Source of the DNA: Opisthorchis felineus
Lineage: Eukaryota; Platyhelminthes; Trematoda; Opisthorchiida; Opisthorchiidae
Reading direction: 5' to 3'
DNA length: 64,000 bases
Assembly: GCA_004794785.1 (NCBI GenBank)
Contig: SJOL01008902.1
Coordinates: forward strand, 372,636-436,635
The notes beneath the pieces were generated by a model, which saw only the letters and a list, made by a program, of their open reading frames with translations, ran no database searches and had not been told where the DNA came from. Positions 2,692-64,000 of this stretch are shown here, piece after piece. A program made the translations under genes and the position numbers. Position 1 is the first letter of the stretch. Every line of letters begins with the position of its first letter.

Positions 2692-2703
2692 GGAAACGTC
2701 CCT
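2692..2703 (+). repeat. Target-site duplication, left copy (PLE-2)
   Basis: The 12-bp sequence GGAAACGTCCCT occurs here and again at 4037-4048, exactly bracketing PLE-2. A perfect 12-bp match directly at the right inverted end is best read as the duplication made on insertion. Confidence 0.75.
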
Positions 2704-2783
2704 ATAGAGGAAAATGTTGGTAGCTCAGGTAGCGTAGATGGTCGTTGGCTTGTTCACTGAGCTGGGCAATTTTGATTGCAAAC

Positions 2784-2814
2784 GTTTCATCACCAATCGA
2801 GGTGACATCATCAG
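2784..2814 (-). ncRNA. Hammerhead-like motif in left end of PLE-2
   Basis: Read on the minus strand, CTGATGA (2814-2808) is followed by a TCACC/GGTGA hairpin with a 6-nt loop and then GAAAC (2788-2784). TGCA on each side can pair to form a short stem I. Stem III is essentially absent (GAAAC-GTT). There is an unpaired extra base or two between the core and stem II, so activity is doubtful. Minimal hammerheads in PLE flanking repeats are established for metazoans; the assignment of this copy is by inspection. Confidence 0.55.
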
Positions 2815-3139
2815 TGCATTATTGGGGAGCGTAGTGGTGCGTAGCGATCGGTTGGTGGTTGTGCGTTGAGTAGTGTTGCGTGTGTGTTAATATACGTGCT
2901 GCTAACCGGGGCTGACCTTTGATCGCGATTAGTTGTTCGGTCGGGCGGTTCCATTGGTCGTTCCGTTGTCCTGTGTCCTCATTCGCCGATGCCCTTTGAG
3001 CTTGGCATCCCCTGTCGTCGTACTCTGGTCGATGCTGGAGTGACCTTTGTCCTTGGCCTTTCCGAGTTCCGGCTTGTGACCTTTATTGACCTGACTCCAA
3101 GGAGTTCCTTGTTTCTTTGCTTGTGTGTTTGCGTGGTAC

Positions 3140-3984
3140 CGCCCATCATCAATCCAAAGCTGTGGATCCGCTAAGTGGACGACACCTTCGTCATCATGAA
3201 ACGAGATTCAGTACAAAATGCACATGAACTGCTCAACACCACGTTTGAAGAGATCAAGGTTACAATCGAACTGGAGAAAAACAATCGATTACCATTCCTA
3301 GACGTTTTGGTGAACAGAAAGGTGGATGGGACTCTGGAAACCTGCGTATACCGGAAAGAGACACATACGGACCAAATACTGAACTACAACAGCAATCATC
3401 CTGTAAACCACAAGAAGAGCTGCGTCCAAACCCTGTTCAAGAGGGCGGAGACACATTGCAGCAACAGGGAACTACGGAAGAAGGAAGAAAACCATCTATT
3501 CAGAGTATTCCAGAACAATGGATATCCAGGGAATTTTATCAGGAGAAGCTTGAAGAAGAAGACATCTCAACAACAGCAACAGCAGGAACAAGCCACCAGA
3601 CGAGTAGTTCTGCCTTACATCAAGAATATATCGGAACTCGCAACCAGATTATTGGCTCAAAAAGGAATTCTCGTCGCTCACAAACCGAATGCCACCCTAA
3701 GAAAACTAATCTCAAGACCGAAGGACAATCGAGACAAAACCAAGAGTAACAATGTGATATACCAAATCAACTGCAGCAACTGCAACAAATTCTACGTTGG
3801 ACAAACTGGGAGGAAATTAGGCACACGAATAAAGGAACACAAGGCGGCTGTCAGGAGACATGACCCTCTATCCTTGATATCCATACACGAAGACCAAGAA
3901 GGCCACAAATTCAGTCTGGAAAACGCAAAAATTTTGGCACACGGAGACACGAGACACGGAAGAGAATTTCTGGAAGCATGGTGA
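3140..3984 (+). pseudogene. PLE-2 RT C-terminal half plus GIY-YIG endonuclease
   Basis: The 269-codon frame from 3175 is the longest recognisable coding stretch in the window. It opens on VDDTFVIMKR, the catalytic RT box; the Tyr that should precede VDD is replaced by the stop TAA at 3172-3174, and the matching upstream residues (PKLWIR) sit in frame before it from about 3153. Next come LPFLDVLVNR (residues 40-49), a YRKETHTD block (59-66), a Gln-rich run (about residue 137), a linker, and a GIY-YIG nuclease domain: NVIYQI with a CxxC pair (SNCNK) near residue 200, then FYVGQTGRKLGTRIKEH (about 206-222). GIY-YIG nicks target DNA to prime reverse transcription in PLEs. The first half of the RT is missing, apparently deleted between the flanking repeat and about 3140. 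The stop codon (3982-3984) lies inside the 3' hammerhead-like motif. Confidence 0.85.
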
Positions 3985-4011
3985 TGATGTCACCTCCATT
4001 GATGATGAAAC
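3981..4011 (+). ncRNA. Hammerhead-like motif in right end of PLE-2
   Basis: This is the inverted partner of 2784-2814. On the plus strand GTGATGA (3981-3987) replaces the core CTGATGA, a weak stem II follows (CACC/GATG region), and GAAAC is at 4007-4011. The change of the first core C and the weakened stem make it a probable relic. Confidence 0.45.
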
Positions 4012-4036
4012 GCTTGCAATCAAATTGCCCAGCTCA

Positions 4037-4048
4037 GGAAACGTCCCT
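4037..4048 (+). repeat. Target-site duplication, right copy (PLE-2)
   Basis: A perfect repeat of the 12 bases at 2692-2703, immediately outside the right inverted end (CAGCTCA, ending at 4036). Confidence 0.75.
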
Positions 4049-7054: not shown

Positions 7055-7225
7055 TCACTCACTCACTTTACTCACTCACTCACTCACTCACTCACTCACT
7101 CACTCACTCACTCACTCACTCACTCACTCACTCACTCACTCACTCACTCACTCACTCACTCACTCACTCACTCACTCACTCACTCACTCACTCACTCACT
7201 CACTCACTCACTCACTCACTCACTC
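7055..7225. repeat. (TCAC)n tetranucleotide microsatellite
   Basis: About 42 copies of the tetramer over 171 bp, with one interruption (TTTA) near 7067-7070. Because 4 and 3 are coprime it reads as an endless Leu-Thr-His-Ser frame, which is not a protein. Confidence 0.97.
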
Positions 7226-27956: not shown

Positions 27957-28006
27957 AGTAAATCATAATGTTGAAGGAACCTCGGAGTCTAGAAAATGAG
28001 GCCCAC

Positions 28007-28037
28007 GACCGGTTCCGTCCTTTCTGGGGCTCATCAG
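28007..28037 (-). ncRNA. Hammerhead ribozyme relic (GAAA mutated)
   Basis: Minus strand: CTGATGAG, stem II GCCC/GGAC with one mismatch, then CGGAAC in place of CGAAAC, then CGGTC. Stem I GGCCTAC/GTGGGCC is 7 bp. The substitution in the invariant GAAA probably abolishes cleavage. Confidence 0.7.
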
Positions 28038-28099
28038 GTAGGCCCAGGCCCCGAGATTCCGACAACTTTATGTCCTGCTTGAACCCGAATTGCACGAAA

Positions 28100-28235
28100 T
28101 TAGCAAAATACACTCGTTCGCATACCAGTTTGGTTTTGACGAGAGACTCACCTGGAACCCAGCTGAATCACGTTCAGTTCCAGGTGAGTCTCCCGTCAAA
28201 ACCAAATTGGTATGCAAATGAGTGTAGTTCGCTAA
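28100..28235. repeat. 136-bp hairpin of two end modules
   Basis: TTAGC...GCTAA ends, arms of about 60 bp, and a centre around GCTGAATCACGTTCAG. Both arms are the end module of the hammerhead repeat. Confidence 0.9.
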
Positions 28236-31560: not shown

Positions 31561-32314
31561 TGCTTTAAGCCAGTGACTTCTATGTTTTATAACAATTCGT
31601 CCCCTCACAATAACAAAGACAGCAAAGTTTATCAGTGGCCAGACACGCAGTAGCATTCCACAGGCAAGTGAGCATGGTAGCAGCCGTACTCTAGTAAGAT
31701 GCCTCAAACTGGATTTCACCGTTCAACCACGTCTACCCAACCATCACCGAAGCACTTCACAACTGTTCCTCTTCAGTCTCAGAACAAAATCACAGTTTAC
31801 ATTTCAAGGTATCTTGTCGGTAGCACCGACAAACTGCCACCAACCTATGCAGGAGGGAAAAAATTTCACTGCCTACATCAGTTTTGTAGCTGCAAGTTTA
31901 TCACTCGGGAACCAGTCAGCAAGTGATCAATGGATGTGAATTATATGATTAAGTGTTGAATGGTGCTATATCTGATCAGCCACTCGTGGTCGAATTCCAT
32001 AGTGCTTAACCACTAACCAGAATGTCGATAGTTAAATTTCTCCAATGGATTCGTGAGATGGACAATACGGACGAGTCTCAACAGGGAAGAAACAGCCTTA
32101 CAGTGCTTCTCAGCTTCCCAGCGCAGATTGACATCAGTTGCACGATAAAGTCTGGTTTGAAACTTTCAGTGTTCCTCGCCGTAAACAAACTGCGTTTTTC
32201 ATTGAAGGTCCAGCTCCGGTTACCTGGTGTTCTAGCTGGAATAACTTGAACCAATGGCGAAGCGTTGCGAGCATCAGTACACAGGTAAACTGCTGTCAAA
32301 AGAAGAATCAGTAT
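31561..32314. other. No gene recognised
   Basis: Short frames only. The first part may be the tail of repeat B. Confidence 0.5.
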
Positions 32315-32510
32315 GGCGAAATACACTCATCTGCAAACAAATTTGGTTTTGCGAGAGACTCACCTGGAACCCAGCTGAATCTTCGTTTGTGATGTTTCCA
32401 GGCAACTGAATGTGCTGCACCAGGCCGCCTCATGTTCCAGTTGCTACGATATTCGAGATATCGCGATACATGTATATTCGTGATGCACTACTCATAAGGT
32501 TGTTGAATCA
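32315..32510 (-). repeat. Hammerhead repeat, body without ribozyme
   Basis: On the minus strand it contains the body and end module nearly as at 50840-51024, including the small hairpin CGATAT-loop-ATATCG, and stops just short of the ribozyme. Confidence 0.85.
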
Positions 32511-33773
32511 GTATGAACTATGCAAGATAACAAAAGGCGCTGGGAAAATCTAGGTGAATAAGGCGTAGAGAACTGTTTACTTGTTGCAACAATGGGGTTA
32601 TTCTCATTTAAATTTGAGAGGCATTTTGTTGATTCTTGGTTGAACATTACTCTCAACCGCACTCGAGCTGTCCCGAAATCTAGGGATTGCATTCATTCAA
32701 GCTAAAGAACCACTGCCTTCGAACAAGAATGAAACGAAACACGTTCATCTCCTGATAAGCATACTTTGGGGGGCGACAGCTGGGACTATAGCGATCTATC
32801 ATTTACTGCAGCCTCGAACTCTTAGCTATTCAACGGTGCAATAACCTAAGAATAAACGATGCTTTTCTGAAAATAAACCACTGAAATGAAAGGTAGATGC
32901 CTCACGCTAATACGTAGCTGACGAGGGGTTCAATCTTTCAGGTTTAGTGCACACAAGCTTGTGTTTGTAACTTGGACTGGTTTTATAACGAATATTGCAA
33001 TACTTGGCTTAAAAACTTTGGGTAGCTGTCTAGACGAGAGGTCTAGAAAGAAAATTCATCTCCAGCAGAACATCTCACCAGTAGAACAACTTCTCGAGGT
33101 AGATCTTATGAAGAGAAATCACACTTCAGGACAGTCTACAACAGCATTTACTGTCAGACGTGGTCTATGTTACGCTCTTAGGAAGAGATGTATGATTCGC
33201 AATTTCGCCGTGAAATCCGCATTTGACAATGATTGTATGCAGATCACCATTAAGATGCAGGCTATGATTACCAAACCATGAATGAGGGAAATTACCCTAA
33301 ATCATTAGGCAACCTCCGGATTGGTAACGACTCATGTTGACTGCATAGGTTTTATTGTTTGGTACAGTACAATTTATTAGCCGACAACAACTGAAGGCCA
33401 AATTGGCAATCCAAATAATGGAATTGATCATTTGGAACTTATTCTGTCTATTGCCCAAAAACGAACGGCCCAAGAATTAGTTCTCTTAAGTTCCCGATAG
33501 GTGATGCAACAATGAAAGCTGCACTTTTTTTCTAAACAGCGAACTGTGGGCGAGAATGCAAATAATTAGGTAAGGGATAATCCCATTTAGCGGTCTGTTT
33601 TCGTGATTATCATCAGAGCTAGATAAAAAAAAGGGTGGCTGATAATTCTTCCCCATCCCCTTTGCTGGATGAATTAGTGCGTTAAAAGGAGTCCGCAAGC
33701 TTTGGTCATGGAAAATCCCCTGAAACATGTAACAATGATGTCCAGTACAGGCTCACTCAACTAACTAGCATAT
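32511..33773. other. No gene recognised
   Basis: The frame at 32961-33281 (+) has no known motif. Confidence 0.5.
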
Positions 33774-34040
33774 TCGCGAAATACACTCATCTGTACACCA
33801 ACTTGGTTTTCCACTGGAGACAAATGAATCCCAGCTGATCCGTTATTGATATTCTACAACCGAACGTGCTGTATAAATACCGCCTCATATTTCAGTTGGC
33901 ACCAAATCCGAGGTATCACAATATATTTTTCTGAAGGGAAAATGCAGGCGAGTTTGCTGACAACTCATCGACATTCCACGACCGGTTTCACCCTTCCTGA
34001 AGCTCATCAGGTAGGCGGAGTCCCTGAGATTCAGCTGAGA
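33774..34040 (-). repeat. Hammerhead repeat, nearly complete unit
   Basis: One diverged unit from linker through ribozyme (34010-33980) and body to the end module (33774). Confidence 0.8.
33980..34010 (-). ncRNA. Hammerhead ribozyme, core intact
   Basis: CTGATGAG, GAAAC and the GTC cleavage triplet are all present. Stem II is weakened to GCTT/GGGT (wobble pairs) and stem I keeps about 4 bp (CTAC/GTGG). The zero-loop CCGG stem III suggests a dimeric ribozyme. Confidence 0.7.
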
Positions 34041-47669: not shown

Positions 47670-47757
47670 TGGTGAAACATTATAGACAAGAGATCCAGCC
47701 GGGTTTCAGGTGTCTCCCGTCAAAACCAAAACGATATGCAAATGAGTGTATTTGTCA
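47670..47757 (+). repeat. Hammerhead repeat fragment (end module)
   Basis: The TATAGACAAGAGATCCAGC, AGGTGTCTCCCG, CAAAACCAAA and ATGCAAATGAGTGTATTTG series, as at about 50945-51018. Confidence 0.8.
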
Positions 47758-49640: not shown

Positions 49641-50712
49641 AACCCACAGTTCTGTGTACGAAAGAAGCCAGTACGGCGTTTGACCTGATGTCGATCAAAG
49701 GCCAGTTCCACTAAACCCCAACGTTGTCACTTTTTAGTAAGCCAATTTACATCCTTACTCCGTTTAGCTGTCTGTTCTAGGTGAGTTGCCTTATTGAGGG
49801 CAACCTCCATGGAAGTGGACCGAACAGTGAACAAATGGCTCTTCTCATAACCGTAAAGCCAAGCTATGCCATACGGAGGACCATTTGTCGGAACAACAAA
49901 ACTAGTTGGTTTATACCTCAGTAATTGAAAAATACCAGAAAGATTCGTCACTTGGGGGCTAGGAGGACTCACTAGCTTGGTAGCCTTCTAACTCCTGATC
50001 ACAGGTTAGGGTGTTGTCGTTTGTTGCGCTATACAAGGTTTAACAACAAGCGGTCATATGCTGTGAAAGTCTCTCAGACAAAGGTCTCCCTAATTAGACA
50101 AATTCTGGGTCAGGAGACCCCCAATTAACCTGACAGGTTGAAGTTAGAAAATCCAGTCTCTGGAACACCTAGTCGTTCTACATTAATTTGCGTATACCAG
50201 AAGGAGTTTCACCAGTTACGCTCTCTGGAACGGATGGAACGCTCATTTTCAAGAAAAACTTACCACTCTTCTGTTACGAACTGGAAGTCTAACATTCCGT
50301 AGCGTGATAATACAGCATGAGGTGACTGACAGGCAGTTCCGCTGAACACACTGCACGCAAGGTGGAAAATGTCATAAGTGGTGGTCGAGCGGTTCCCCAA
50401 TGGGGCAGTCTGACGACATTAGAACGCGTTTCTAACAACCTTTACCTCAAAATACCGGATGACGAACTTATGAGGAAGTCCCATGTCGTGATTGACTTTG
50501 TAGCTGAGGGTTGCCTGATGGCAATTTGGACGTCAGTCATCTTCGTCTCAATCCAGCTGTGGTGGCCATTCACGATCGCGCAGATACTGCTGCCGATCAT
50601 GGGACGAGCGCAGCTGCAGTGCACGTCATCCATTTATCCTGGATAAATTGGCCGCAATGAAAAAAATAAGCAAAATTTTGTTACAGTTTCCTCTATCAGC
50701 GTAGGTGATCTT
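49641..50712. other. No gene recognised
   Basis: The frame at 50362-50646 (+) has no known motif. Confidence 0.5.
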
Positions 50713-50772
50713 TTAGCGAAGTACACTCATTTGCAAACAAATTTGGTTTTGCGGGAGACTCACCTGGAACCC
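50713..50772 (+). repeat. Left inverted end of hammerhead element
   Basis: Near-perfect reverse complement of 50965-51024. Confidence 0.9.
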
Positions 50773-50779
50773 AGTCTAC

Positions 50780-50810
50780 CTTATAAGCCACAAGAAGGAC
50801 GAAACCGGTC
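50780..50810 (+). ncRNA. Hammerhead ribozyme 1 (core damaged)
   Basis: CTTATAAG replaces CTGATGAG; CGAAAC and the CGGTC cleavage triplet are intact, and GTGGGC follows. Loss of the invariant GA in CUGAUGA should prevent cleavage in this copy. Confidence 0.7.
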
Positions 50811-50964
50811 GTGGGCTGTCGAGGAATTTTCAGCAACCGTATGAGTAGTGTATTACGTCTATACATGTATCGCGATATCTCGAATATCGTACCAACTGAA
50901 ACATGAGGCGGCCTGGTGCAGCACATTCAGTTGCTTGAAAACATCATAGACGAGAGATGCAGCT

Positions 50965-51024
50965 AGGTTCCAGGTGAGTCTCTCGCAAAACCAAATTTGT
51001 TTGCAAATGAGTGTATTTCGCTAA
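50965..51024 (-). repeat. Right inverted end of hammerhead element
   Basis: Ends TTCGCTAA; mirrors 50713-50772. TA dinucleotides lie at symmetrical places at both borders. Confidence 0.9.
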
Positions 51025-51080
51025 GTTCGTGCAATTTGGGTCCAAGTATAACATAACGGAAACTCGAACACTGCGCCTAT

Positions 51081-51111
51081 CTGATGAGCCCCAAGAAGGG
51101 CGAAACCGGTC
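51081..51111 (+). ncRNA. Hammerhead ribozyme 2 (intact core)
   Basis: CTGATGA, stem II GCCC-CAAGAA-GGGC (4 perfect pairs, 6-nt loop), GAAAC and GTC with predicted cleavage after 51111. Stem I pairs GCCTAT (51075-51080) with GTGGGC (51112-51117). Stem III is CC/GG with no loop, so a monomer would be unstable and two copies probably act together, as proposed for minimal PLE hammerheads. All catalytic-core positions I can check match the consensus. Confidence 0.85.
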
Positions 51112-51165
51112 GTGGGCTGTCAAAGAATCTCCAGCAACCTTATGAGTAGTGTATTACGTCTAAAG

Positions 51166-52639
51166 TGATCTTTTGTTCACTTAAAAAACAAATCACAGTT
51201 CTAAAGAAGAACTTGCTGTTCTTCAGAGTACCAGAAGTGCAGCGATGTAATGGGGAGCCACCAAAACGCCTAAAGCTGAAAGTGCTCCGCCTCGGCTTGT
51301 TACTACACGCAAAGAAAATCACACTGACTGTTATAAAAATGTTTTAAATCCTGTATCCTACGGTAAACTTCTTCCCTTCCCCAAAATACCTGTTTCTTTG
51401 CAGACAATCAACACTCTCGCAGAGTCCACTGTCACATCAGATTCGTTCCAAACCGACTGACCAACATGTGATACGGTTGCCACCAAATCTGAACAACAAC
51501 CTGCACAACAACAACAACAACCACCACAACAACAACAACAGTCACAATGGCCTGTTTCTATTGTTGCTTATAACACAGTTTAGGCATGTGTAGTGCCACG
51601 GCTTTTGGAACCCCACAGTCACCTAAATCTTGCTTAGTTCTGTTTTTAATAATGTGATCAGCTGGCTCACAGAAACGTGACCACAAGTTACTTATGCTCA
51701 GATTTTGTTTGCTTATCTCGTTGGTAATCATTAGGTGGTGGTGCGATATTAACCTGTCGTTCCAGTGGCCTCGATTTCGTGTGTCGATGACAACGGAATC
51801 CAGTTTGGATACCCATGGGTGTTAGTACAATTTGTCGAATTTGTATTGAGCACACAAGCTGAATTCGCGCCTTGTAATTATTCCGTCTTCAAATAGCTGA
51901 ACAAAGGAGCAACTTTGTTGAAGAGAACTTACCAAGATGGGAATACACAGGCTCCCTCTGTTTGTCTGGAGTCTGTCTGTTTTCGTAAAAAGCCTTACAA
52001 CCGAAAGGTTGGATTAAATATGTGGCCCGAAATTTGAAAACAAACCTCTAAGTCAGGCTATTGAAGATAACGGGTGAAATCTTCACCAAAAAATGCGTAC
52101 CATTTATCATTCAACCTTCTCTCAGACTTAAGGTGCGGAGAGATGTTATCTTTTTATCCAATTATCCCAGTCGGGAGATTTTCACTTTCCTGTCGAAGAA
52201 CTCGCAGAAAAACGGGACATTTTAATATGAAAACGCTGAGGTCTTCTCGATGTTCCATGTTACCAATTAAGTCAAACATACACGAACAAAACAGGTGGCA
52301 ACACACCAACAACATAGCATATCCATTCAATTCTTTTCGATTCCGCTATGCCCTAGTGCCATCCTCTGCTAGGATACTAATGACATTTTTGTTTGAAGCT
52401 TGCATCACAAAGGGTATCCCATCAACGACTTGGAGCTTAAAGCACCCAGAAAAGTGAACTCATTGCCTGGATGTCTTTAGATTCCTATCAGGACATCATA
52501 CTTATCCCATCAAAATTTCAAGTCCGGTCGATTCTGTCACGTCCGCATTACAGGTGGGATAGAAACGGTAGCTTAGAAATCTGGCCTCAGGTGCCTTCTG
52601 CAGTGACAACTTAAAAATATTTAAGGCATTCGACAATAG
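51166..52639. other. No gene recognised; (CAA)n tract
   Basis: A CAA/CCA triplet tract lies at about 51491-51541. The frame at 52074-52457 (+, 127 codons) is not significant in length and has no motif. Confidence 0.5.
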
Positions 52640-52915
52640 ATTAATTTACATATCAATTTGGTTTCCATGAGAGTGTTCATCAAGTGAATATGCTGCACCA
52701 AAACGTTTCATGTTTCATATTCGGGATATTGCAATATAATGTTTGGATGCAGCACACTACTCATAGGGTTGCTAAAAACACAGACTAAGTTTCATGCATG
52801 TGAGCTTCGAGTAAAGAAGCCTCAAAACTGACGGAAACTCCGGGACTGCGTCTACCTGATGAGCCCAAGAAGCGCGAAACCGGTTGTGGACTGTTGGAGA
52901 GTAATGTCCCTTAGA
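52640..52915 (+). repeat. Hammerhead repeat, head-to-head copy
   Basis: 52640-52790 is a diverged body in minus orientation (GAATATGCTGCACCA, CACTACTCATAGGGTTGCT). From about 52820 the linker and ribozyme run in plus orientation. Confidence 0.75.
52856..52885 (+). ncRNA. Hammerhead ribozyme (intact core, GTT triplet)
   Basis: CTGATGAG, stem II GCCC/GCGC with one mismatch, CGAAAC, and GTT instead of GTC. Stem I GTCTAC/GTGGAC is fully paired and differs from the 51081 copy by a compensated pair (C-G to U-A). Confidence 0.75.
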
Positions 52916-62699: not shown

Positions 62700-62841
62700 C
62701 TGAATTTTGTGTGCACATTTCAGCTCATCCACGCTTGTTCTTGGACAAGTAAAACATTGTTTATCCCCTATAATTCGGACTTTCTTTTCACTTGTTCTCG
62801 GACGCATTCTAAAACTCTCAATTTACTTGGCTAGGAATACA

Positions 62842-63710
62842 ATGGATCCGCAGCTACGACCTAGGTTCTTCGACGCCGACGCAAACTCTGCAGATGCAGC
62901 CAAGCGCTGGAATCACTGGTTAAGTACCTTCGACACCTATCTGCAAACTGTCGAATCTTCTAAACCCGACAAACTTGAAACTCTCATCCACTTTTTGAAC
63001 CTGCTGGTGTACGGTCACATTACACTGAATATGAATCTGCGACCGAAAATTACACGTCCGCCCCAACAACGCTACCTGCTAAAGACCTACAAGCAAGAGC
63101 ACGGACAAGCTATTGGTCAGTTCGAACGAAAACTGAAATTATTAGCCGAAGACTGCGAGTTTAAATTAGCATCTTCAACTGAATATCAAGATGAATGCAT
63201 GCGTCATGCTATAATTAACGGCCTGGGGTACTCTTCCATCTGTGAAAAACGTCTAGCAAAGAGCTAACTCACTCTGGACCAAGTATATCAACTTGCTCGA
63301 ATTGGCTCACAAACAGTCGCAATCATATGCTAGGAACGAACCTATATCCTGCTCTACGATTTGGCCCATCTTACAGAATCCCGAACCAAGCACCAATCCG
63401 ATCACTGCTTCTGTGAAACCCGTTCAAACGTGGGATTTCCGTGTTTATGATAGACATCCTCGTTCAAAGTGCCCCACTCGAAAAGCCGTTTGTAATCTTT
63501 GTGGTGAACGCGGTCACTTCCGCCGCGTGCGCCGTTCGAAAAATACCACCGACTTCCATACAAATTGTACAATGAATCCCACTTTATCGTCATTATTCGT
63601 TGCAGCAGCACCTACCTACCTGGCACGTGCCATCACAACCATCAAAGTCCACGGAATCGTTCTCCTTGCCCCGGTCGACACTGGAAGTTCTTGTTACTTT
63701 CCGTCACGCA
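62842..63710 (+). pseudogene. Ty3/Gypsy gag and protease fragment
   Basis: Gag starts at ATG 62842 (MDPQLRPRFFDADA) and runs 141 codons to a TAA at 63264. It contains a WNHWLSTFDTYLQTV capsid block and a RYLLKTYKQEHGQAIGQFER block. The capsid continues past the stop (LTLDQVYQLA) and then in the +1 frame from about 63290 (LELAHKQSQSY). A zinc knuckle at about 63486-63530 reads CNLCGERGHFRRVR: the CX2CX4HX4C pattern with the last Cys changed to Arg. The retropepsin active site VDTGSS is at about 63673-63690. Directly after it, repeat C is inserted. Reverse transcriptase, integrase and LTRs are not in the window. Gag packages the RNA and the protease matures it; neither can work here. Confidence 0.85.
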
Positions 63711-64000
63711 GAGACTGGACCTTACCGTGGTGTGGCGGTTTGTGTACCTCGGCGACCCATTGAGCTATACTGGGGGGGAGGGGGTCCGCGCGACACTCAC
63801 AGAGTCTCTCATACCAGGTTGGTCAATGGGTAGAGGTCGGACGAACACAGTCTCCTGACCCTCCAGGTTGGGGGTTAGAACATGTGTGGCGACGTGTTCC
63901 GTAAAATTGGCAATGTACTTGCATTTCCAACCCAACACCGCTGCCTTGCGGTTAGGCTTTTGAGCCAAAGGCTTTGGTTGAGGACCCTAATCGTCCTCCT
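63711..64000 (+). mobile_element. Repeat C, second copy (runs off window)
   Basis: GACTGGACCTTACCGTGGTG onward aligns with 20471-20757 with scattered substitutions, to the last base of the window. It interrupts the Gypsy protease just downstream of its active site. Confidence 0.85.

Follow-up and report, generated by a model that had tools for sequence, protein, structure and literature searches.

A decayed non-LTR retrozyme copy in Opisthorchis felineus and the scar of its probable two-ended insertion

The insert and its hammerhead modules

The window analysed here, the whole 64-kb stretch (64,000 nt) of Opisthorchis felineus DNA under study, contains at positions 50715–51164 an insert of 450 nt, which is flanked by two copies of GTGATCTTTT. 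The insert region holds a pair of inverted arms (50713–50774 and 50963–51024; 62 nt, 95% complementary) and a direct repeat (50776–50861 and 51077–51162) with a spacing of 301 nt and an identity of 88%. Its parts are listed below; TSD denotes a target-site duplication, and S1 and S2 are the two sites at which copies of the repeat usually end.

50705–50714, no strand: TSD, left copy, GTGATCTTTT (sequence reading and TSD test)
50715–50773, minus: putatively S1-primed piece, which repeats the S1 end of the unit in inverted orientation (inverted repeat and segmentation)
50716–50728, minus: outer end of the S1-primed piece, GCGAAGTACACTC, which is site S1 (like the end in other TSD-bounded copies)
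50774–51164, plus: putatively S2-primed piece of approximately 1.3 units, terminating at site S2 (repeats and segmentation)
50776–50816, plus: hammerhead 1, broken core CTTATAA at 50780–50786, cleavage position after 50810 (sequence reading)
50843–50860, plus: internal copy of site S2, GAGTAGTGTATTACGTCT (sequence reading)
50963–51024, plus: right arm of the inverted repeat (inverted-repeat detection and segmentation)
51009–51021, plus: internal copy of site S1, GAGTGTATTTCGC, inside the right arm (sequence reading)
51063–51130, plus: hammerhead 2, intact core CTGATGA at 51081–51087, GAAA, GGTC, cleavage position after 51111 (Rfam HH9)
51144–51161, plus: terminal site S2 (like the ends in other copies)
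51165–51174, no strand: TSD, right copy, GTGATCTTTT (sequence reading and TSD test)

The initial annotation had read the arms as long inverted ends with symmetrical TTAGC/GCTAA borders, like those of a TA-target MITE. The arms exist, at the length and complementarity given above, but they are not the termini of the insert: the right GCTAA border lies within it and, since a single GTGATCTTTT duplication encloses all 450 nt, the supposed MITE ends are not the insert's ends. The inverted arm corresponds to the stretch of the unit that was copied from each of the two sides.

The two same-orientation hammerhead modules of that annotation, with cleavage positions 301 nt apart, were confirmed, as was their common flank, with GAGTAGTGTATTACGTCT following each module; the modules are 88% alike. 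Only the downstream one has an intact core; the upstream core is altered at positions 5 and 8 (usual numbering), and a hammerhead with the core CTTATAA should be inactive. The downstream module scores 35.7 bits against Rfam HH9 (E = 5e-7), which is below the HH9 gathering score of 52, and no match in the Rfam scan of the window and of locus L028 (see below) reached the gathering threshold. The pattern CTGATGAGN(2–25)CGAAAC occurs twice in the window (51081 and 52856) against 0.01 occurrences expected; the exact hammerhead pattern gave no match in IMG/VR.

As read from the sequence, helix I of the downstream hammerhead comprises six pairs (two being G-U) and connects the motif to the remainder of the unit (a type I hammerhead), whilst helix II has four pairs. 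Helix III is a single A-U pair closed by the palindromic CCGG and would therefore fold poorly as a single module; the axolotl Amex1 ribozyme, the helix III of which is one pair with a palindromic tetraloop, acts as a dimer, according to the accessible text of PMC7229834. CTGATGA, GAAA and GTH occur together in 37 of the 70 distinct hammerheads, and there is little covariation in the helices across copies. The unit at 50811–51111 has a GC content of 45.8%; its circular fold, in this decayed state, is no better than that of shuffled sequences (z −0.5, 100 shuffles).

Genomic copies and their 3′ ends

A search of the 630-Mb assembly with positions 50700–51200 as query gave 7771 first-look candidates, 40 of which were scored. 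Our sample comprised the window, the surroundings of scored copies (38 stretches) and 20 stretches of 10 kb taken at intervals along one contig; L001–L008 were left out as duplicates of the window copy and of L009–L015. As 38 of the 59 stretches were retrieved with the 50700–51200 copy, the targeted figures are helped by the query; the untargeted set (the window and the 20 stretches; 239,810 non-N bases) includes the window holding the finding. BLAST mapping placed 24 insertions in the untargeted set, and the copy number extrapolated genome-wide is 47,000 (from the 20 stretches alone) to 63,000.

The headline counts derive from a strict segmentation which permits strand switches (68 insertions, 105 arms), with unit positions (u) numbered from the cleavage site on an actual 307-nt unit from L028. 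BLAST mapping (66 insertions, 100 segments) gave the same picture overall, its alignments running through short inverted arms; it scored the window copy, L042 and L044 as one-directional, and the large lap difference it gave for L044 is an artefact. L016 is compound (−+−+, with one +− neighbour inside) and was left out of the pair counts; L040 was counted as one-directional despite a 16-nt S1 piece at its right end.

Elsewhere in the window there are ten more mapped pieces of the repeat, including:

28001–28235, minus: second head-to-head copy, with S1 at one outer end and an unclassified outer end at u6 (BLAST and segmentation)
32314–32507, minus: one-directional copy ending at S1, 5′-truncated, TSD GAATCAGTATG (segmentation and TSD test)
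33772–34032, minus: one-directional copy ending at S1, with hammerhead (BLAST and segmentation)
47674–47753, plus: one-directional copy ending at S1, 5′-truncated, TSD AATGGTGAAACA (segmentation and TSD test)
52681–52900, both strands: two decayed head-to-head pieces, 52681–52778 (minus) and 52829–52900 (plus, hammerhead at 52856), scored as two insertions in the segmentation

The window also holds a (TCAC)n array at 7055–7225 (42.5 copies, 97% matches) and, at 62704–63763, two overlapping ORFs which by eye resemble a retrotransposon gag, with zinc-knuckle-like and protease-like DTGS motifs; a Pfam search of these ORFs gave no match.

The recurrence of the roughly 300-nt spacing among genomic copies, which the earlier reading called for, is present: tandem units of 301–307 nt and many dispersed copies were found, the unit being 301 nt long in the window copy and 307 nt in L028 and other loci. 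At L028 (900–3049, reverse strand) seven consecutive 307-nt units are without any difference, with partly different units on either side; its origin is either a single recent rolling copy or recent growth of the array. The L028 unit has a GC content of 46.6%, and its circular fold gives a z score of −4.9 (100 shuffles). With its tandem type I hammerhead units, dispersed copies and TSDs of 8–15 bp, the family has the retrozyme layout first proposed, and the locus 50713–51165 is a decayed (fossil) copy of this abundant non-LTR retrozyme.

The 68 insertions comprise 34 simple head-to-head pairs, 33 one-directional copies and the compound L016; no simple tail-to-tail pair occurs among them. Among targeted insertions 26 of 43 are head-to-head, among untargeted ones 8 of 25, L016 being additional to these, and the length and inner edges of the inverted arm differ among copies. 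The 3′ ends fall at two sites, S1 (GAGTGTATTTCGC) and S2 (GAGTAGTGTATTACG), which lie about 146–161 nt apart on the unit. The windows used for counting (u200–222 for S1, u34–64 for S2; together 54 of 307 nt, or 17.6%) were defined after the first ends were known; they contain the 3′ ends of 83 of the 105 arms (39 S1, 44 S2) and the 5′ ends of 11 (5 S1, 6 S2). Within head-to-head pairs, 57 of 68 outer ends and 5 of 68 inner ends lie there. The concentration is also found in the untargeted set and the sites are therefore not merely an artefact of the query: in its eight head-to-head copies, 12 of 16 outer and 1 of 16 inner ends lie in S1/S2, and in its one-directional copies 9 of 17 3′ ends and 4 of 17 5′ ends do so by segmentation (the earlier BLAST mapping was sharper for these 3′ ends, at 13/16).

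Were each end to choose its site independently, same-site pairs would be expected to be common; amongst the 34 head-to-head pairs, 25 have one S1 and one S2 end, nine have at least one unclassified end, and none has the same site twice.

The resemblance between S1 and S2 is weak. The score of the pair in the window copy was reached by none of 8549 pairs of unit 30-mers and by 64 of 3000 random 30-mers from the window; the L028 pair is unremarkable (1327/8549). Outside the first mapped segments, the S1/S2 motif gave two matches, both adjoining retrozyme pieces. Structure prediction places S1 and S2 each within a hairpin of the L028 circle, and poly(A) is absent from the copy ends listed. The S2 ends of L041, L058, L013 and L049, in which GAGTAGT is followed by CTCC, CTTCC or TTCC in place of GTATTACG, represent a subfamily.

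TSDs could be sought in 62 of the 68 insertions, the remainder having N or short flanks. A score of at least 9 was reached by 24 of the 62, two of which are element sequence (L019 and the second L024 piece), leaving 22; 0 of 600 random pairs reached it. The other 38 have no TSD of score 9, an absence due at least partly to age. The duplications are 8–15 bp long and varied in sequence. In several loci the TSD encloses a complete head-to-head structure (L009, AAGCCTGAAG; L020, CTGCAGATTATAT; L038, TATACTTGTCTCTG; L044, CAAGAACAACTGT; L045, AAATGACAAATCCA), which indicates that both pieces were inserted in a single event. There are 17 TSD-bounded head-to-head copies, 13 with one S1 and one S2 end; the other four, namely L015, L038, L039 and a copy in L058, end once in S1/S2 and once outside the windows.

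Template, candidate enzyme and insertion mechanism

Ribozyme-cut linear monomers were considered as the usual template and rejected, as run-off 5′ ends are not in excess at the cut site (2/105, against 4.1 expected, with no pile-up). Of the 105 arms, 59 cross this site and 44 exceed one unit in length; the usual template is therefore either circular or an uncut multimer. Identical laps, which count for circles, number seven in L028 and two each in L017 and L031.

The notion of one single circle per insertion throughout was not supported, because the arms and laps of one insertion often differ. The laps adjoining the identical run of L028 differ from it at 8/307 and 20/186 positions; the arms of L010 are 5.0% apart and its laps 1.0%, and those of L030 6.8% and 1.3%, respectively. 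Such differences can exceed the effect of age, so that the template was often more than a single RNA, or else a multimer of heterogeneous units; they would be accounted for by dimeric circles, by template switching or by multimers of this kind. In L039 (599–1373), the laps differ at 8/307 positions, and the outer two have rare bases in common (u217, u247) that are missing from the middle lap; this is what a dimeric circular template would give. Opposite arms have 79 minor variants in common, against a matched null of 48.1 ± 7.4 (reached in 1 of 5000; segmentation), or 70 against 47.6 ± 6.7 in the BLAST mapping. This excess is real but modest, and may be caused by subfamilies.

A candidate for the mobilising enzyme lies in the same window, as an apparently 5′-truncated Penelope-like element (PLE):

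2692–4048, plus: PLE, apparently 5′-truncated (TSD, inverted piece and ORF fragment)
2692–2703 and 4037–4048: PLE TSD GGAAACGTCCCT, 12 bp (sequence comparison)
2704–2813: inverted 3′-end piece of the PLE (inverted repeat)
3175–3984, plus: PLE ORF fragment with a GIY-YIG domain (domain search)

A 12-mer is shared by 2 of 2000 random pairs, which provides a null for this TSD. The element has two different 3′ ends, 54 nt apart, one of them with a 54-nt tail. Near both ends is a CTGATGATGTCACC...GGTGATGAAAC motif, which we take to resemble a minimal PLE hammerhead; Rfam lists no hammerhead at these ends. A Penelope ORF in the window has 81% identity with a protein of Clonorchis sinensis and, over 42% of the query, 84% identity with one of Opisthorchis viverrini. 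A search of the assembly for PLE ORFs gave 5964 first-look candidates, of which 143 were scored; matches no more than 5 kb apart, judged by eye among the 144 listed, form seven head-to-head, four tandem and one tail-to-tail arrangements.

In vitro, a PLE protein in purified form cuts both strands and extends them, with internal starts at two sites (PMC11167929, in its accessible part), and the anatomy of the window PLE is what that work would predict. The retrozyme copies have the same insertion anatomy: an inverted head-to-head 5′ piece, a short TSD and two alternative 3′ ends. As to the suggestion that the insert is PLE-derived, it has this anatomy in common with the window PLE, but no PLE sequence was seen in it; at 450 nt it is too short for a reverse transcriptase/GIY-YIG ORF, and no ORF of 150 aa is listed there. 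No sequence common to S1/S2 and the 3′ ends of the window PLE was seen, and the link between retrozyme and PLE thus rests on anatomy. The case for a PLE as the mover of the retrozyme is strengthened, although unproven.

Taken together, the locus is probably best explained as a decayed non-LTR retrozyme copy inserted by two-ended target-primed reverse transcription from S1 and S2 on circular or multi-unit RNA, with a PLE enzyme most likely responsible. Tandem genomic units would be transcribed; the hammerhead, having a short helix III, would, by analogy with published hammerheads, cut best as a dimer, and cleavage would give unit-length and multi-unit RNA that can be circularised. A reverse transcriptase, most likely that of a PLE, a kind of element abundant in this genome, would cut both target strands some 8–15 bp apart, and both target 3′ ends would then prime inside the RNA at S1 or S2, where fixed 3′ ends are observed. 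Both cDNAs would proceed the same way round the unit, past the cut site and in some cases through more than a full unit, before being joined head to head, with gap filling producing the target duplication; the stretch copied from both sides would be the inverted repeat. A more specific and tentative possibility is that a single (or dimeric) circle, held by a dimeric Penelope-type reverse transcriptase at its two start sites, templates both strands, each cut target end being extended from its own site; the pattern of one S1 plus one S2 end would be the trace left by such a complex.

LINE activity, too, can yield head-to-head joins and 5′ truncation, and a LINE-type reverse transcriptase carrying out ordinary twin priming, as in L1 5′ inversions, with the same insertion mechanism otherwise, is an unlikely alternative. 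BLAST overlaps of at least 2 nt at 18 of 32 junctions, a count inflated by BLAST extension, hint at microhomology joining and would fit it. L1 twin priming, however, starts at the poly(A) tail and an arbitrary second site, whereas both starts here are usually fixed internal sites and the ends listed have no poly(A); moreover, it is the window PLE that has the matching anatomy.

We give little credence to an ordinary hammerhead satellite DNA spread by unequal exchange. The seven identical units of L028 could also have come from recent unequal exchange or gene conversion, and unequal exchange may explain the growth of long arrays, but the short copies, which are dispersed and have TSDs and fixed 3′ ends, speak against it.

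Snap-back self-priming of one cDNA, or an antisense template, was proposed for PLEs of Adineta vaga, which have palindromes at the inverted junction (PMC3846280, in its accessible part), but is very improbable as the origin of the head-to-head copies here. It needs near-identical unit positions at the inner ends; those of the paired pieces are separated on the unit by a median of 104.5 nt, and lie within 15 nt of one another in only 1 of 34, which speaks for two separate initiations. Snap-back also leaves the different sites at the two outer ends unexplained.

A miniature inverted-repeat DNA transposon that acquired a hammerhead, to which the 62-bp arms edged TTAGC/GCTAA might point, can practically be dismissed, and a MITE hybrid is not needed, as the right edge lies inside the insert, the arms differ among copies in length and in their inner edges, the TSDs are 8–15 bp and varied (GTGATCTTTT here) with no constant TA duplication, and 33 of 68 insertions have no inverted arm.

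According to the accessible part of a 2020 review (PMC7761336), animal non-LTR retrozyme repeats have no conserved motif pointing to an autonomous mover. The insertion scar offers a testable answer on the mover: two-ended target-primed reverse transcription from two internal sites, like the scar of the window PLE. For this family, it also serves as genomic evidence against the linear monomer released by the ribozyme as the usual template, and makes priming from both strands a better account of the head-to-head copies than self-priming.

Comparison with known systems

In a literature search with thin coverage of subscription journals, we found nothing uniting hammerhead, SINE and twin priming, and nothing on a hammerhead ribozyme in Opisthorchis. 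A plant LTR retrozyme, with type III hammerheads in its LTRs and a 4-bp TSD, was considered and rejected, the window copy having a 10-bp TSD and a type I hammerhead. Amongst trematodes, Sm-alpha is a schistosome hammerhead repeat. Schistosome W elements, compared by description only, are likewise trematode hammerhead repeats; the accessible text of PMC8490949 mentions TSDs and inverted repeats inside the element for some of them, but no two-ended insertion scar.

The resemblance to PLEs is one of anatomy. Endonuclease-containing PLEs, as far as they are described in the accessible parts of PMC3846280 and PMC11167929, have partial tandems, a head-to-head inverted 5′ piece and one TSD (theirs of 8–10 bp), and their 3′ end takes two alternative forms, one with a 'tail' and one without; their in vitro reaction cuts both strands and extends them from two internal starts (PMC11167929). 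They differ from the retrozyme in the spacing of the two sites, 30–40 nt against about 146–161 nt for S1 and S2, with no terminal sequence seen in common, and in that the retrozyme insert has no space for a reverse transcriptase/endonuclease ORF.

The family goes with the animal non-LTR retrozymes, which in the accessible text of PMC7229834 (Cervera and de la Pena 2020) have tandem units of approximately 170–400 nt with a type I hammerhead, a GC content below 50% (46–47% here), TSDs of more than 4 bp and thousands of copies, with PLEs coexisting; amongst them, the axolotl Amex1 ribozyme matches the one-pair helix III with palindromic tetraloop found here. That text describes tandem copies, and makes no mention of inverted pieces, two fixed 3′ ends or a pattern of one S1 and one S2 end. 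What appears new relative to the animal retrozymes described there is that the copies of the present family probably record two-ended, two-site reverse transcription.
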